64,000 bases of DNA, taken from positions 1 through 64,000 of the forward strand of contig CABYPD010000004.1 of NCBI GenBank assembly GCA_902520835.1, read 5' to 3'. This document shows, piece after piece, positions 3,664 to 15,514 of this stretch (position 1 is the first letter of the stretch; every line of letters starts with the position of its first letter). A program made the translations under genes and the position numbers. Below the pieces are notes generated by a model that saw only the letters and a program-made list of their open reading frames with translations, did not search any database and was not told the DNA's origin. This stretch comes from an uncultured Bacteroidota bacterium. GTDB taxonomy: Bacteria > Bacteroidota > Bacteroidia > Flavobacteriales > Flavobacteriaceae.

Positions 3664-4359
3664 ATGAGAAATTTAATTTTTGTATTTATAGGTTTCCTTT
3701 TATCATGTTCACCATTAAAAAAATATGAGAATACGGCAAATATTTTTGAGGATGAAATCTTAAAGCTGGAGCAAAAAGATTATCAATCTAAATCAAGTGA
3801 GAATTCTTTACTATTTATAGGAAGTTCAAGTATAAGAGGTTGGGACAAAATTGAAGAAGACATGATTCCTTATAGTACAGTTAAAAGGGGCTATGGAGGA
3901 GCACATTACTATGACTTAATCCACTTTATTAATAGGTTAGTTAAAAATCATAACCCAAAAGCAATTTTAATTTTTGTTGCTAATGATATTACGGGCTCAA
4001 AAAATAGAATAAATAATCATAAAGATTTAAAACCCAAAGAGGTAAAAAAATTATTTAAATTTATTTATAAATCAATTAGAAAACTTCACAAAAATACTCC
4101 TATTCTTGTTATTGAGACAACTCCAACCCCTAGTAGATGGAAAGTTTGGGATAAAATTTCTAAAGCAAATGATTTAATAGAAAGATTTTGTAATAGCAAA
4201 CCACAACTACATTATATTAATACAAGAAAAAAGTTTATTGGAGATGATGGCCTGCCTATAAAATCTTTTTTTGTTAAAGATATGCTACATCTCAATAGGT
4301 CAGGTTACATTTTATGGTCTAATATTATTAAAGAAAAATTAAAAAAATTGAAAATTTAG
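3664..4359 (+). CDS. SGNH/GDSL-type esterase lipoprotein
   Basis: The 231-residue protein has a lipobox (FLLSC, Cys15). The SGNH blocks are all present: block I GSSSIRGW (residues 53-60, nucleophile probably Ser55), block II Gly in 'RGYGGAHY', block III Asn in 'VANDITGS', and block V with D and H in 'DMLHLNRSGY'. These enzymes hydrolyse O-acyl esters on sugars or lipids. It starts right after the YdjC gene and its last four bases overlap the convergent gene at 4356. A role in glycan deacylation beside the sulfatase is inferred from context. Confidence 0.85.
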   Translation: MRNLIFVFIGFLLSCSPLKKYENTANIFEDEILKLEQKDYQSKSSENSLLFIGSSSIRGWDKIEEDMIPYSTVKRGYGGAHYYDLIHFINRLVKNHNPKAILIFVANDITGSKNRINNHKDLKPKEVKKLFKFIYKSIRKLHKNTPILVIETTPTPSRWKVWDKISKANDLIERFCNSKPQLHYINTRKKFIGDDGLPIKSFFVKDMLHLNRSGYILWSNIIKEKLKKLKI

Positions 4360-9341: not shown

Positions 9342-10001
9342 ATGACTGAACTAATTAATAACCCAAAAGTTATTAAAAACGCATTTAGATATCTTTCAAA
9401 GGATCCGGTGATGAAATTTTTTATTTCAAAATTTGGTAATAAAATCAATCCAATTGAAAGATATAATTCAAACCATGCGATATCAATTTGTAACTTAATA
9501 ATTGAACAACAGATTAGCTTTAAAGCAGCGATTACAATTAAAAATAAATTTTTAAAACTAATTTGTAATAAATCTAATACTGAAATCTTAAAAATGAAAA
9601 ATGAAAAAATTCAGAAAATTGGGATTTCATATAGAAAAGTTGAATACATTAAAAATGTATTAAATTTTTTTGAGCATAATAATCTAAAAATTAAGGAATT
9701 ATCAAATGATGAAATAATAAAATCATTAAGCAAAATTAAAGGTGTTGGAAATTGGACGTGTGAAATGTTTTTAATGTTTGTTTGCTTTAGAAAAGATATT
9801 TTTTCGTTCGGTGATCTGGCTTTGGTTAATAGCATGAAGATTAACTATCAAATAAATGAAACAGAAACCTTAAAATTAATTGTACTTAAATGGAAACCTT
9901 ATAGAACGATAGCAGCACTTTTACTTTGGTTTTCAATCGAAAACAAAATTTTTTTTCAATCAAATAATTTATTAAATAAATTTTTATCAACTCTAAAATA
10001 A
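9342..10001 (+). CDS. DNA-3-methyladenine glycosylase II-like HhH-GPD protein
   Basis: The 219-residue protein has the HhH-GPD fold: 'ICNLIIEQQISFKAAITIKNKF', the helix-hairpin-helix 'LSKIKGVGNWTCEMFLMF' and the downstream catalytic Asp region 'DIFSFGDLALVNSMKINY', then 'WKPYRTIAALLLWFS', a pattern shared with AlkA/MAG enzymes. These excise alkylated purines. It is shorter than E. coli AlkA because it lacks the N-terminal domain, as in the Mag1-like group. It is divergent from the photolyase, so the locus groups light repair and base excision. The last 46 bases overlap a small ORF on the other strand. Confidence 0.82.
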   Translation: MTELINNPKVIKNAFRYLSKDPVMKFFISKFGNKINPIERYNSNHAISICNLIIEQQISFKAAITIKNKFLKLICNKSNTEILKMKNEKIQKIGISYRKVEYIKNVLNFFEHNNLKIKELSNDEIIKSLSKIKGVGNWTCEMFLMFVCFRKDIFSFGDLALVNSMKINYQINETETLKLIVLKWKPYRTIAALLLWFSIENKIFFQSNNLLNKFLSTLK

Positions 10002-10129
10002 TATCCATTTTCCTCATGGATACTACCATCAGGTTTAGATTTAGATGTATGGTATTTCAAAATATGATTTTTAAATTCAATTAGATTAGGAATTTTATAA
10101 TCTCTACCGTTTAAATCTTTAATTATCAT
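9956..10129 (-). CDS. Small hypothetical protein, 57 residues
   Basis: An ATG overlaps the stop region of the upstream PlsC-SGNH gene (10119-11504) by 11 bases and opens 57 codons ending in TGA inside the 3' end of the convergent glycosylase gene. The product (MIIKDLNGRDYKIPNLIEFK, later 'KPDGSIHEENGYYFRVDKNL') looks like a folded soluble protein with ordinary composition, not random translation. The overlap implies translational coupling as the last gene of the trehalose operon. I do not recognise a function. Confidence 0.6.
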   Translation of the reverse strand: MIIKDLNGRDYKIPNLIEFKNHILKYHTSKSKPDGSIHEENGYYFRVDKNLFNKLFD

Positions 10130-11504
10130 TACTTAATAGTTTGTTTAATTTATTAATTATGAGTTCATATCCATTTCTGTTCAAATGTAGACCATCTCTT
10201 AAAAAAAAACTTTTATCAATCATTCCATTTTGGATTATTTCTTCAAAACAATTTAATTGTATCAAATTGTCATACTTTTTAAAATGATCTGTTATCATTG
10301 AGTTAAGAAAAATAATGTCAGTTAATTTTGAAACTCTTTCAATTGATGGTTTTAATTGAATATTAATTATTTTAATATTCTTATATTTTTGGTTAATCAT
10401 TTTTATTAATTCAACTAGCTTATTAAAAATTTCTTTAGGTGAAAATCCTAGTGCCAAGTCATTTCCTCCACAATAAAGAACAATAGTTTTTGGTGAAATT
10501 GTTTTAAATAAATTATGAAAATTATGAATCATTGAATCTATTGATGAACCACCGAAACCTAAATTAAGAGTGTTGTGATTTTTAAAATCTTTATCAAAAG
10601 ATTTCCAAAGTCTTAATGTTGAACTACCATAAAGAACTAAAAGATCATTTTTATTCTTCTTTGAAATAATCTTATTTTTTAAAGCTATGATTTCTTGCTG
10701 AAAATCTAAATTAAATTCTCTAAGAGTATTTATTTTTTTCTTAAACTTTTTATTTAAATGAATTAAAAATTTCTCAATTTTTGAATCATTAGGATCACAG
10801 ATCCCAAAATCACTCATTTTAAATGGTTTTAAAATCTCGCATTTTAATACATTTTTAGAAATTACTTTATCAAAATTCACCAATACAATAGGAACAATAA
10901 ATGGTTCTTTTTTTGCCATAGTCGCAAGCTTAAAAGCACCCGATTTAAAAGATCCTGGTGAATTTTCAGTTTCTTGAGAAACACCTTCTGGGCTAATAAT
11001 AATTCCATTATTATTTTCAAGTTCTTTTAAGGCATTTTGAAAAAAATTCAAATTGAATTTTCTTATTTTATCTGTATCTAAATTTTTAGGAATAAAATTT
11101 TTTGAGAAAACTCTTATGTATCCAAATCTGTCGTAGTATGATTTATGCTTTTTTTCATTTTCTAAGGAACATCTAACAATTCTTGTTCCTGGTTTTTTGT
11201 AATACTTATTTAAAATAAAACTGCTTATAAAATGACTATCAAGAGTAATTTGAAAATCTGATCCTATCAAATAATCAGGATTATTATTTAAATGATTATA
11301 TATGAATATTGATGATGACTGATAAGGTAAGTGCTCCGATCCCTTGATTATTAAATTTGCATTTGAAAAAAGCTCATAAAACTTATTTGCTGCTAATAAT
11401 CTTGCCTCTTTCTCGGACTTGGTTTCATCTAAATTAACTACAGTTTTAAACAAATCATTTAATCCTTTTTTAAAATAATTTTCACCAAATAAATTATTTT
11501 TCAC
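10119..11504 (-). CDS. Fused PlsC-like acyltransferase and SGNH hydrolase
   Basis: Residues about 50-245 are a glycerolipid-type acyltransferase: 'IFIYNHLNNNPDYLIGSD' in the acceptor-site position, then 'ISPEGVSQETENSPGSFKSGAFKLATMA' and 'FIVPIVLVNFDK'. The catalytic spacing reads H-x5-D rather than the usual H-x4-D. Residues about 285-461 are an SGNH hydrolase: 'VLYGSSTLRLWKSF', 'NLGFGGSSIDSM', 'LYCGGNDLALG', and 'RDGLHLNRNGYELI'. The start is a GTG immediately after the stop of the trehalose synthase gene. The protein could move or trim acyl groups on a lipid or sugar; trehalose as acceptor is only a context-based guess. Confidence 0.78.
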   Translation of the reverse strand: MKNNLFGENYFKKGLNDLFKTVVNLDETKSEKEARLLAANKFYELFSNANLIIKGSEHLPYQSSSIFIYNHLNNNPDYLIGSDFQITLDSHFISSFILNKYYKKPGTRIVRCSLENEKKHKSYYDRFGYIRVFSKNFIPKNLDTDKIRKFNLNFFQNALKELENNNGIIISPEGVSQETENSPGSFKSGAFKLATMAKKEPFIVPIVLVNFDKVISKNVLKCEILKPFKMSDFGICDPNDSKIEKFLIHLNKKFKKKINTLREFNLDFQQEIIALKNKIISKKNKNDLLVLYGSSTLRLWKSFDKDFKNHNTLNLGFGGSSIDSMIHNFHNLFKTISPKTIVLYCGGNDLALGFSPKEIFNKLVELIKMINQKYKNIKIINIQLKPSIERVSKLTDIIFLNSMITDHFKKYDNLIQLNCFEEIIQNGMIDKSFFLRDGLHLNRNGYELIINKLNKLLSNDN

Positions 11505-13706
11505 CTAATTAAGATTTGATAGTATTGACTTGATTTTATCAGAATTTTTTACAAAATACTTAGCTGAAGTATTCTTTTCACCAACTTTTATTGAAATTGA
11601 ATTTTCTGGGAGAGCATTAAACATATATTCATCGGAGGCATCATCACCACAACAAAAAATAAAATCATAATTTTCATTACTCAACAACTCATTTATGATA
11701 TTCCCTTTATTAATTGAAAGATTGGTAACTTCCAAAGCCTTATTACCATCAATAACAGAAATATTTTCTGAAATCAAACTTGATAAAACTGTTTTTAATT
11801 CCATTATTCTTCTTTTTGCAAGCTCTGGATCTGTTTTTCTGTAATGCCAAACTAAAGTGTTTTTTTTATTCTCAATAAATGTACCTGGTGTATTGTCAGT
11901 AAATGACTCAAATATTGGTGAAACATCATTTTTCCATTCAATATCATCATTATTTTTAGAAAGCCATTTTGAGGAATCAGAATATTTTATAAAATTTCCA
12001 TGTTCAGCAACTAAGTTTATATTTAATTTGCCGAACCATTTATCTAGAAAAAATTGATCTCTTCCACTAACTATAAAAAGCTCTGTTTTATCTTTTGTAT
12101 TGATTGATTTTAATATTTTCAATAAATTTTTGTCAGGAACCGCTAATTCAGGATCATTATTGAATTTTACTAATGTACCATCATAATCTAAAAACAAAAC
12201 TTTTTTTGAAGATTTTTTAAATTTTTTATAAATGGTCTTTTCAATTGTTTTGTTAATTTCAATAGTTTCTTTTTCTAAATTAAAACTTGATTTTTTTGAA
12301 AGATTATCGATAAAGTCTTTTGCCCACCTTTGGACTGTGTATCTAGATAACCTTTTTTGCATGGTTAACATTCTCCTTTTTTGTTCTTTAGCAGGCATTT
12401 CAAGTGCTTTAAGAATACTTTCAGACATTTGATCTAAATCAAATGGGTTAACGAGTATTGAATCAAATAACTCAATTGATGCACCAGCCATTTCGCTTAG
12501 AATTAATACTCCATCTAAGTTTACTCTCGTTGAAACGAACTCTTTTGCAACTAAGTTCATTCCATCTCTTAAAGGTGTTATCATAGCAATGTCAGAGTTC
12601 ATATATAAGTCAATTAAATCATCAAAATTCATGGCCCTGTAATAATACCAAATTGGCGTCCAGTTTACTGTTGCAAATTTTCCATTAATTCTACCAACTA
12701 ATTCATCAGTTTCTTTTTTTAGATTTTTATAGTCAGAAACATCCGATCTTGATGGAACAGTTAGCATCACAAGTCTTACTTTACCTAAAAATTGAGGATA
12801 CTTCTCTAGAAATATTTCAAATGCTTTGACTCTATTAATAATCCCTTTTGTATAGTCAAGCCTATCAATAGAAAGTATTAGCTTTCCCTTTTGTGAAGAT
12901 TTTTTATGTAAGTCTAATTGCTTTTTAAGATTAGATTCTTGAGATTTTTTCAACCTTTCATGAGTTTTTGCAGCGTTATGAAATTTTTCATAATCTATTC
13001 CCATTGGGAATGTATTTACAGCTATTTCTCTTGAATCATGTGAAATCCTATTAAAATTAACTTCCTTTCTTAAAATTCTCTTAATTGAACTTAGAAAATG
13101 TCTTTCATAATTATAAGTGTGAAATCCAACAAGATCAGCACCCAAAATTCCTTCAAGAAGTTCTTTACGCCTAGGGAAAATCCTAAATATCTCATAAGAT
13201 GGAAAAGGGATATGTAAGAAAAATCCAATTGAAAGATCAGGTCGTAAATCTCTTATCATTTTAGGTAAAAGCATTAACTGATAATCATGCACCCATACAG
13301 CCCCGTTTTTTTCAACATTTGAAACTACAGCATCACAGAACTTCTTATTAACCTCAAAATAAGTATCCCAGTGATTATCATTAAATTTTGAATAATCAAT
13401 AAAATAATGAAATAATGGCCATAAGCTTTTGTTAGACAATCCGTAGTAATAATTTTCAATTTCAATAGAGCTTAGCTCAACTTGTATTAAGTTTTGATCT
13501 TTTAAAATTTTTTTAATATGATTATTAGATTTGGTTGTAAACTCCTCTGATTTTATTCCACTCCACCCAATCCATACTGAGTTATCATCACGAATTGAAT
13601 TAACACCAGTGGCTAATCCTCCTGAAGAGGGTGTTATATCGAAAGAATTTTCTAATTTTGATAATTGAATCGGAAGTCGGTTCGATACTATTACATTTTT
13701 TACCAT
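11505..13706 (-). CDS. Bifunctional trehalose-6-phosphate synthase/phosphatase (OtsA-OtsB fusion)
   Basis: I chose the ATG at 13706 (MVKNVIVSNRLPIQLS), which begins the GT20 fold; a start 13 codons further up would add non-homologous residues. Residues 1 to about 470 are trehalose-6-phosphate synthase ('VWIGWSG', 'VWVHDYQLMLLPKMIRDLRPDLSIGFFLHIPFPSYEIFR', 'SIDRLDYTKGI', 'RDGMNLVAKEFV'). Residues about 500-733 are the HAD phosphatase ('VLFLDYDGTLVKF', 'IVSGRDQFFL', 'FCCGDDASDEYMF'). It makes trehalose from UDP- or ADP-glucose and glucose-6-phosphate. Start codons of this gene and the GH15 gene are only 14 bases apart. Confidence 0.92.
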   Translation of the reverse strand: MVKNVIVSNRLPIQLSKLENSFDITPSSGGLATGVNSIRDDNSVWIGWSGIKSEEFTTKSNNHIKKILKDQNLIQVELSSIEIENYYYGLSNKSLWPLFHYFIDYSKFNDNHWDTYFEVNKKFCDAVVSNVEKNGAVWVHDYQLMLLPKMIRDLRPDLSIGFFLHIPFPSYEIFRIFPRRKELLEGILGADLVGFHTYNYERHFLSSIKRILRKEVNFNRISHDSREIAVNTFPMGIDYEKFHNAAKTHERLKKSQESNLKKQLDLHKKSSQKGKLILSIDRLDYTKGIINRVKAFEIFLEKYPQFLGKVRLVMLTVPSRSDVSDYKNLKKETDELVGRINGKFATVNWTPIWYYYRAMNFDDLIDLYMNSDIAMITPLRDGMNLVAKEFVSTRVNLDGVLILSEMAGASIELFDSILVNPFDLDQMSESILKALEMPAKEQKRRMLTMQKRLSRYTVQRWAKDFIDNLSKKSSFNLEKETIEINKTIEKTIYKKFKKSSKKVLFLDYDGTLVKFNNDPELAVPDKNLLKILKSINTKDKTELFIVSGRDQFFLDKWFGKLNINLVAEHGNFIKYSDSSKWLSKNNDDIEWKNDVSPIFESFTDNTPGTFIENKKNTLVWHYRKTDPELAKRRIMELKTVLSSLISENISVIDGNKALEVTNLSINKGNIINELLSNENYDFIFCCGDDASDEYMFNALPENSISIKVGEKNTSAKYFVKNSDKIKSILSNLN

Positions 13707-13720
13707 TTCAAACGCAATGT

Positions 13721-15514
13721 ATGCATAGCAACAAACTTCATGCAAAAAAAAATCTACTTAATTATGGTATTATAGGGAATTGTAAATCTAGTGCATTAAT
13801 TTTTGAAGATTCCTCAATAAATTGGTGCTGTTTACCTCAATTTGATTCTTCTTCAGTTTTTGGAAAAATTTTAGATGATGAAATTGGAGGACATTTCAAG
13901 ATAACAGTTGATGATTCGTACTCTATTTCTCAAAATTATTACAATAATACTGCTATCCTCAAAACTAACTTTAAAAATAATGAATGTGAGTTTGAATTAA
14001 TTGATTACATGCCAAGATTCAAAAATGACAATGGGTCTTATTATTCCTCACCTGAAATTCATAGAATTTTAATACCAATAAAAGGTAACCCAAAAATAAA
14101 GGTTGAATATGAGCCAAAACTTGAATATTCAATTGGTAAAACTCTAAACTATTTGAAAAAGAATTTTATCGTTAGTATAGTTGAAGACAAAAATTATGAA
14201 ACACTTTTTCTTTACACTGATTTAGATAAAAAAGATATTTTAAATGGTAATGAAATAGTAATTAATAATAAAATATTTTTTTGTGTTTCATATAACGAAA
14301 AAATAAATATACCAAACTTCGATAGTATTTATTTAGAGTATGAAAAAACTAAAGTTTACTGGCTTAATTGGACAAATAAAAATCCACAATATAAAAATTA
14401 CACAGATCAAATTAATAGAAGTGCGATAACCTTGAAACTTCTAACTTTTGAAAAAACTGGAGCGGTATTGGCTGCGGCAACAACCTCAATTCCTGAAACT
14501 ATAGGTGAGGTTAGAAATTGGGACTATAGATTTTGTTGGATAAGAGATGCTTCGATGGTTATAAAAATAATAACAAAACTAGGGCATGTAAAAATAGTTA
14601 AGAATTTTATCGATTTTATTGTAAATCTAATTCCTAACAAAAATGAAAAGCTTCAAATTATGTACGGAATTAATGGAGAAAAGATTCTTACAGAAAAAAA
14701 ATTAGATCATTTGTCAGGTTTTATGAGTTCTAAGCCTGTTCGTATTGGAAATGCAGCATACTTTCAAAAACAAAATGATATTTACGGTATTTTGATGGAT
14801 GCAATTCATTTTCAAATTTTAAAATTTCAAGAAAATAAATATCAACAAGAGCAACTATGGTCAATTGTAAAATCAATTGTTTGGTCAGTAAATAAAAATT
14901 GGAAGAAAGCAGATAAAGGCATTTGGGAGTTCAGAAATAAAGAAATGCACTTTACTTTTTCTAAATTATTGTGTTGGGTTGCTGTAGATAGAGCAATTAA
15001 GATATCAAAATTAATTCAGAGAGGAGAAAAAGCTAAGAAATGGGAATCATTGAGAAAAGAAATTCATGATGACATTATAACCAATGCTTGGTCAAAGAAA
15101 AAACAAGCTTTCACTCAGTCTTATGGTTCTGAGGAATTAGATTCTTCAGTGCTTTTAATGGAAAGTTACGGATTTATCAAAGCCAATAATATTAAGTTTA
15201 TAAAAACAGTTAAGTCAATTGAAAATGAACTGATGTTTGAAGGATTACTATTCAGATATAAAAATAAAGATGATTTTGGTGAACCTAAATCTTCTTTTAC
15301 AGTTTGTACTTTTTGGTTCATTGATAGTTTATATAAAATAGGTGAAAAAAAGAAAGCAAAAAAAATGTTTGATCAGCTTTTATCTTACAGTAATCATTTA
15401 GGCTTATTTAGCGAGGATCTTGATTTTAAATCAAAAGAATTACTTGGAAATTTTCCACAAGCATATTCTCATTTAGCTTTAATTGAAACGGCACTAAATT
15501 TTAATTATGAATAA
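13721..15514 (+). CDS. Glycoside hydrolase family 15 protein (glucoamylase/trehalase-like)
   Basis: The ATG at 13721 is used; the reading frame continues upstream but into DNA antisense to the trehalose synthase. The 597-residue protein begins 'LLNYGIIGNCKSSALIFEDSSINWCCLPQFDSSSVFGKILD', the N-terminal beta-sandwich pattern of bacterial GH15, and the catalytic (alpha/alpha)6 barrel is marked by 'VRNWDYRFCWIRDASMVI' and 'GIWEFRNKEMHFTFSKLLCWVAVDRAI'. No signal peptide. GH15 proteins beside OtsAB act as cytoplasmic trehalases or glucoamylases in known systems, so this may recycle the trehalose made next door. Confidence 0.86.
   Translation: MHSNKLHAKKNLLNYGIIGNCKSSALIFEDSSINWCCLPQFDSSSVFGKILDDEIGGHFKITVDDSYSISQNYYNNTAILKTNFKNNECEFELIDYMPRFKNDNGSYYSSPEIHRILIPIKGNPKIKVEYEPKLEYSIGKTLNYLKKNFIVSIVEDKNYETLFLYTDLDKKDILNGNEIVINNKIFFCVSYNEKINIPNFDSIYLEYEKTKVYWLNWTNKNPQYKNYTDQINRSAITLKLLTFEKTGAVLAAATTSIPETIGEVRNWDYRFCWIRDASMVIKIITKLGHVKIVKNFIDFIVNLIPNKNEKLQIMYGINGEKILTEKKLDHLSGFMSSKPVRIGNAAYFQKQNDIYGILMDAIHFQILKFQENKYQQEQLWSIVKSIVWSVNKNWKKADKGIWEFRNKEMHFTFSKLLCWVAVDRAIKISKLIQRGEKAKKWESLRKEIHDDIITNAWSKKKQAFTQSYGSEELDSSVLLMESYGFIKANNIKFIKTVKSIENELMFEGLLFRYKNKDDFGEPKSSFTVCTFWFIDSLYKIGEKKKAKKMFDQLLSYSNHLGLFSEDLDFKSKELLGNFPQAYSHLALIETALNFNYE

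Follow-up and report, generated by a model that had tools for sequence, protein, structure and literature searches.

The OtsAB locus and its fusion gene

The DNA analysed here, a stretch of 64,000 nucleotides from an uncultured Flavobacteriaceae bacterium (GenBank assembly GCA_902520835.1, contig CABYPD010000004.1) that is called the window below, carries a gene for a protein in which a PlsC-like acyltransferase domain of the LPLAT superfamily is joined to an SGNH hydrolase domain, directly behind a gene for trehalose synthesis, OtsA-OtsB (OtsAB). The window is taken from contig C4 of a genome of 1.41 Mb that is 84% complete, and its genus is represented by 23 genomes including this one, which range from 0.9 to 1.5 Mb and from 55 to 87% completeness. 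The GTG start of the fusion gene lies immediately 3' of the TAG stop of OtsAB, with zero gap, and the fusion gene is the second in a row that ends with a short open reading frame (ORF). A preliminary description of the window had given this arrangement, together with its coordinates, and proposed that acylated trehalose or another acyl sugar is formed and trimmed there; the arrangement was found as described. The features are the following.

11505-13706, minus strand: OtsA-OtsB, bifunctional trehalose-6-phosphate synthase/phosphatase (NF011071, 968.5 bits; PF00982, 8.9e-155; PF02358, 4.6e-50)
10119-11504, minus strand: LPLAT (PlsC-superfamily)-SGNH fusion, 461 amino acids, GTG start abutting the OtsAB stop (ORF, Pfam, family alignment)
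10710-11504, minus strand: putative N-terminal acyltransferase domain of the fusion, residues 1-265 (PF01553, hhalign, predicted model)
10122-10721, minus strand: C-terminal SGNH/GDSL domain of the fusion, residues 262-461 (PF13472, 1.5e-10; PDB profile matches; model)
13721-15514, plus strand: trehalase-like glycosidase of family GH15, divergent from OtsAB (PF00723, 2e-63; NF041084)
9956-10129, minus strand: 57-codon ORF that overlaps the fusion gene at its end (restricted to one lineage, at 3 of 13 loci)

The OtsAB protein exceeds the cut-off of the NF011071 model (634 bits) and also matches Glyco_transf_20 and Trehalose_PPase. The trehalase-like GH15 gene is part of the neighbourhood; its start at 13721 is a chosen codon, the ORF list giving 13631. 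The 57-codon gene, which had been counted as a member of the operon, is present in the window but is not a core part of the unit, as it is confined to the genome of the window and those of two relatives; its product has no Pfam or NCBIfam match. It runs convergently into a gene for an HhH-GPD glycosylase (9342-10001, plus strand), with which it shares 46 nucleotides (9956-10001). A scan for promoters and terminators was uninformative: it gave 26 promoter-like sites, where shuffled sequences lead one to expect 29.3, and 0 terminators.

A gene pair kept in changing neighbourhoods

Homologues of the fusion gene are found in 13 of the 23 genomes of the genus, and each of the 13 follows OtsAB directly and on the same strand (the contigs of G005 and G006 include no more of OtsAB than its end, and in G016 the contig end truncates OtsAB). 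The homologues are 46-93% identical, and since the gene order is constant in 13/13 over this range, the pairing is more than chance. A copy with 93% identity occurs in the sequence record for Cryomorphaceae bacterium MED-G14, which NCBI places in the Flavobacteriales. With the first plausible start codon picked at each locus, the start of the fusion gene and the stop of OtsAB overlap by 4 nucleotides in eight loci and by 11 nucleotides in three, and abut in two; the start codons are TTG (7), GTG (4) and ATG (2). Such overlaps and abutments are a typical pattern of translational coupling, by which the two products may well be made together.

The pair is kept across four types of neighbourhood: one in the window, G012 and G017, a second in G020 and G006, a third in six genomes, and a fourth in G004 and G016, the contigs of G012, G005, G006 and G016 displaying one side of the pair only. 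It is these four neighbourhoods that carry the argument for the pairing, because adjacent genes go missing together from incomplete genomes and co-occurrence is therefore weak evidence. In G004 (locus L071), GH15 has the orientation of OtsAB instead of being divergent, and the OtsAB-fusion pair is unchanged. For the ten genomes with a full or near-full-length OtsAB, the trees of OtsAB and of the fusion share six of seven splits; the seventh, on which they disagree, concerns G004 (supported at 0.648 for the fusion and at 0.989 for OtsAB).

Two genomes, G018 and G021 (loci L107 and L108), have the second type of neighbourhood without the fusion gene, so that OtsAB adjoins the same following gene. 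They are nested among fusion carriers in the OtsAB tree, for which reason loss of the fusion is the simplest account, and this natural loss could serve as a control in lipidomics. In the remaining eight genomes of the genus neither OtsAB nor the fusion was found, which may reflect missing sequence given their completeness. Five outgroup loci, from other genera of the family, were examined: in all of them OtsAB adjoins GH15, and in none does a fusion gene follow OtsAB. The OtsAB/GH15 pair is thus probably the older element, to which the fusion was added at the base of the genus or earlier.

Four overlapping samples of Bacteroidota were searched (60 relatives, 296 genomes of the order, 395 of the phylum and 395 of the class), at most five, six and four candidates being scored per genome at first look in the order, phylum and class, respectively. 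When the full protein was used against the 60 relatives and the 296 genomes of the order, the matches listed from outside the genus start at residue 248 at the earliest, that is, in the SGNH half, with the sole exception of a broken frame in G222 (query residues 197-450). The N-terminal half alone has matches in 8 of the 296 genomes, namely in that of the window and, weakly (8e-5 to 1e-3), in seven others, where they fall in ordinary frames of 244-262 amino acids. A profile of this half finds, at 1e-6, one of the 395 genomes of the phylum, again that of the window, and a profile of the full protein finds, at 1e-25, 58 of the 395 of the class, where the matches listed outside the window's own start at position 232 or later. 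Viral contigs were scanned with the N-half profile as well (142 stretches), none being confirmed. The unit of OtsAB and an LPLAT-SGNH gene is thus a firm physical finding, limited to this genus within the samples searched. The preliminary description had regarded wide occurrence of the fusion without OtsAB as the result that would speak against its proposal; no fusion gene away from OtsAB is among the 13 found in these samples, which are of Bacteroidota only, other phyla not having been searched. The link to trehalose synthesis that it had suggested is supported, and the gene order is conserved.

Long SGNH frames from another family of the order (eight stretches) were considered as PlsC fusions and rejected, as they are secreted SGNH proteins. 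Judged by eye, seven of them (L073-L079) are proteins of about 540 amino acids with a C-terminal part of no assigned family, whose gene adjoins a large glycosidase/phosphorylase-like gene and, in five of the seven, also a GH16-like gene, possibly forming a glucan-use cluster; the remaining stretch encodes a plain secreted SGNH protein.

The two halves of the fusion protein

The acyltransferase half is similar in sequence to the PlsC/LPLAT superfamily, at a distance. In the window protein, PF01553 covers residues 153-208 weakly (22.1 bits against a cut-off of 23). At E <= 0.1, PF01553 (best 6.5e-7) and PF13472 each match all 13 members, which bears out the architecture proposed earlier. In a scan of the genomes with PF01553 at E <= 0.001, the fusion is reported in 10 of 13, over the cut-off in two (G017 and G006), and goes unreported in G000, G012 and G020. 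Alignment of the N-terminal half with hhalign against 11 ordinary PlsC proteins, seven from other families of the order that were picked because they matched this half and four from the genus, gives a probability of 96.7% with a pairwise E of 4e-10; most of the similarity lies in the stretch that surrounds PEG and in the FK.G.FKLA that comes after it. Matches of the fusion ORF to NCBIfam models are far under the cut-offs (TesA-type, 25 bits; AGP_acyltrn, 23.3 bits).

His71, Tyr78, Asp89, His91, Arg108, Arg111, Glu173 and Gly174 are invariant in 13/13, as is the PEG motif P172-E173-G174, which we take to be block 3. No conserved Asp is found at H+5 in the 13 members, and the catalytic motif HX4D is thus missing. 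The preliminary description had pointed to H-x5-D in its place as a possible sign of a different acceptor. The window copy does have this motif. Among the 13 members, however, position H+6 is occupied by Asp in 4, Asn in 5, Phe in 2, Glu in 1 and Thr in 1, and H-x5-D was rejected as a diagnostic motif. Moreover, HX5D is strictly conserved in the marine LPLAT SalA (PMC8319176), to whose altered motif I the window copy is alike, and is carried by the yeast glycerol-3-phosphate acyltransferases Sct1 and Gpt2 (PMC7613133), so that HX5D alone does not mean a new acceptor. The Arg of FPEGTR that contacts phosphate was likewise considered as an acceptor clue and rejected, since the 11 ordinary PlsC proteins compared are also without it. 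The alignment around Asp89 is unsure, because MAFFT aligns this residue with the Asp of ordinary HX4D at the price of shifting the His, while hhalign places that Asp at Gln85. The spacing from His71 to Glu173 is 30 residues longer than in one ordinary PlsC (L100), as counted by hand.

With the motif lost, the N-terminal half could also have degenerated into an acyl-binding domain without catalytic activity, which would regulate OtsAB or the SGNH esterase. This is quite improbable: neither the Asp of HX4D nor that of HX5D is conserved, but His71, Asp89, Glu173-Gly174 and long flanking blocks are invariant in all members, and in three close pairs this half has a ratio of nonsynonymous to synonymous substitution rates (dN/dS) of 0.13-0.28. 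In addition, the mycobacterial mannose acyltransferase PatA is described as retaining 37% of its activity when the Asp of HX4D is replaced (D131A; PMC4792965).

The dN/dS values are simple Nei-Gojobori counts on three close pairs of equal length. Taken over both halves they span 0.13-0.46, the value of 0.46 resting on a dS of 0.04; between the window and G012 they are 0.28 and 0.20 for the two halves and 0.07 for OtsAB. As these ratios are above that of OtsAB, the fusion is constrained, but less so than OtsAB.

The C-terminal half is, by its sequence, an SGNH/GDSL domain with an intact triad. PF13472 (Lipase_GDSL_2) matches residues 298-448 with 42.3 bits against a cut-off of 32.9 (E 1.5e-10), and Ser295, Gly319, Asn348 and Asp437-x2-His440, which presumably are the residues of the SGNH blocks, are invariant in 13/13. 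The Ser, Asn and Asp-x2-His align with those of the solved SGNH protein 4iyj, and platelet-activating factor (PAF) acetylhydrolase Ib is also matched by profile in the PDB. In a tree of the 13 fusion domains and 41 stand-alone rows (40 chosen from 54 SGNH-only loci, L016-L060 and L126-L134, plus the window paralogue), the fusion domains form one clade, save for a fragment inside it (G003_L031) that is 13% filled and whose placement is not trusted. Of the stand-alone proteins in the tree, that of G291 has the best profile score (155 bits); it is one of a group of six in which no signal peptide is evident by eye. In this group (L114, L115, L135-L138; distant Bacteroidota), the SGNH gene stands beside a PF00756-like esterase gene in 6/6, as judged by Pfam in two loci and by a look-alike start in four. 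The window paralogue, at 3664-4359 on the plus strand, is a separate SGNH protein of 231 amino acids with a lipoprotein-like signal and 31% identity to the SGNH half; proteins that resemble it are found in several genomes of the genus.

Structure prediction gave a good SGNH half, whose best folds are PAF acetylhydrolase Ib, Bacteroides acylhydrolases and sialate O-acetylesterase, with TesA lower. The N-terminal half was poor in a first model built without ordinary PlsC rows. When such rows were added, a model was obtained with a predicted local distance difference test score (pLDDT) of 80.4, a predicted template modelling score (pTM) of 0.82 and a helix from 88, the nearest solved fold being TmPlsC (5kym; Z 18.0, root-mean-square deviation 4.4, 217 aligned residues). 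Plant, algal and human glycerol-3-phosphate acyltransferases (GPAT) follow with Z 12.4-13.7 (squash 13.7), then PatA with 10.7 and LpxM with 8.4. The model is no independent test of the fold, because 11 of its 23 alignment rows are ordinary PlsC and push it there; the Pfam and hhalign evidence stands apart from it. L071, a sequence with unknown bases, is absent from the structure alignments but is part of every count of 13.

The fusion protein has no signal peptide, and in the eight of 13 members measured no long hydrophobic segment was found (highest KD-19 value, 1.42), whereas both ordinary PlsC proteins measured have one at the N-terminus (2.28 and 2.62).

An acceptor other than trehalose, such as a lipid A-like sugar, a capsular sugar or another glycoside that depends on OtsAB or belongs to the cell envelope, is improbable, if less so than a non-catalytic N-terminal half. 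Some of the close SGNH folds are sialate O-acetylesterases, and the model for glucosylglycerol-phosphate synthase (TIGR02398) also matches OtsAB, with 382.5 bits under a cut-off of 569; against this, OtsAB is far above the cut-off of the trehalose model, and the neighbouring GH15 protein is most like trehalases, though with 429 bits against the archaeal TreH1 model NF041084 it does not reach the cut-off of 820.

A possible route to acylated trehalose

The fusion is best read as a protein that would acylate trehalose or a derivative of it, with a rough probability of 0.42 for this substrate and product. In the scheme that we infer, which covers coupling, catalysis, the acceptor, the donor of the acyl group and the part played by the SGNH domain, OtsAB would make trehalose, and the fusion, co-made by translational coupling, would be a soluble or peripheral two-domain acyl-sugar enzyme of the cytoplasm. 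His71 would be the general base of the LPLAT domain, with Glu173 or Asp89 as the acid partner that replaces the Asp of HX4D, and a fatty acyl group would be moved from acyl-acyl carrier protein or acyl-coenzyme A to a hydroxyl of trehalose or of a trehalose-derived acceptor. The SGNH domain (Ser295-His440-Asp437) may then add a second acyl group or remove one, which would set the final state of acylation.

There are precedents for parts of this scheme. PatA, which acylates mannose in phosphatidylinositol mannosides, has the LPLAT fold and a His126-Glu200 relay independent of the Asp of HX4D, and its authors propose the block-3 Glu/Asp as acid partner for HtrB, MsbB and PatA (PMC4792965). An invariant His and block-3 Glu without the Asp of HX4D are compatible with a relay of this type; PatA (5f2z) differs from the fusion in its acceptor, a mannolipid, in having no SGNH domain, and in sharing 13% identity in the structural match. 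OctT (Rv2418c), annotated as an SGNH hydrolase, acts in a sugar pathway as an octanoyltransferase (PMC4555173); it is set apart by its description, which in the part available mentions no LPLAT domain and gives a preference for glucosylglycerate-type acceptors. Further acylation of acyltrehaloses by transesterification is known from mycobacterial Chp2 (PMC4183827).

Among the better known relatives of the two halves, the likeness to PlsC/LPLAT enzymes (PF01553; TmPlsC) extends to sequence, the His of motif I and the block-3 PEG and may extend to the fold, whereas the fusion lacks the Asp of HX4D and the hydrophobic N-terminal segment and is SGNH-fused and probably OtsAB-coupled. PAF acetylhydrolase Ib, the Bacteroides sialate O-acetylesterase and TesA have the SGNH fold and the Ser-His-Asp arrangement in common with it, but they are stand-alone proteins, while the SGNH part of the fusion is a C-terminal domain without a signal peptide. 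Acyltransferases joined to SGNH domains that act on sugars are known as AT3-SGNH and MBOAT-SGNH systems (OafB; PatA/PatB of peptidoglycan); these are membrane acyltransferases with the SGNH part outside the cytoplasm, whereas both domains of the fusion appear soluble. OlsF of Flavobacterium johnsoniae is a PlsC-type acyltransferase fused to an N-acyltransferase, and its product is an aminolipid.

The principal alternative is membrane-lipid remodelling, in which the LPLAT domain would re-acylate a lysolipid or aminolipid and the SGNH domain would serve as lysophospholipase or thioesterase, a deacylation-reacylation cycle in one protein that is co-expressed with trehalose synthesis under osmotic stress or desiccation. 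The nearest folds (PlsC and GPAT for the N-terminal half, PAF acetylhydrolase and, lower, TesA for the other), the PF01553 matches and the sub-cut-off TesA-type ones agree with it, and abiotic stress is a typical inducer of trehalose synthesis (PMC7549927). It is nevertheless rather unlikely, as the eight members measured lack the long hydrophobic segment of ordinary PlsC, shared regulation needs no overlaps of 4-11 nucleotides kept in four neighbourhoods, and the window genome encodes three further PF01553 proteins, so that routine PlsC work has other candidates.

Several observations weigh against acylation of trehalose. OtsAB occurs without the fusion in G018 and G021, coupling of genes can reflect shared regulation only, and the fusion evolves faster than OtsAB. 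Glycerolipid enzymes come ahead of PatA among the fold matches of the N-terminal half, Glu173 is conserved in ordinary PlsC too, for which reason the PatA-like reading rests on the loss of the Asp of HX4D, and Asp89 may simply replace that Asp. Furthermore, OctT is reported to use trehalose only insignificantly (PMC4555173). The earlier interpretation is therefore supported in part, namely in its link to trehalose and not in the role given to H-x5-D.

Both domains come from known superfamilies, and the OtsAB-coupled LPLAT-SGNH protein itself is undescribed. A literature search found no paper that combines PlsC and SGNH and, among the matches listed, no OtsAB-coupled acyltransferase in flavobacteria, in agreement with the earlier remark that no described flavobacterial system of this type was known to its author. 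More tentatively than the acylation step itself, a dedicated acyl-trehalose pathway of marine Bacteroidota can be considered, in which one soluble protein adds acyl groups and rearranges or removes them, with an LPLAT site that lacks the Asp of HX4D. To our knowledge, a sugar lipid of the acylated-trehalose type is not known from the phylum Bacteroidota. Such a pathway would be a route to a glycolipid or an acylated osmolyte unrelated to the trehalose lipids of mycobacteria. Should the product be acylated trehalose, such a sugar lipid would be formed by streamlined bacteria of the ocean, and a branch that acylates sugars with an altered catalytic motif would be added to the LPLAT superfamily.

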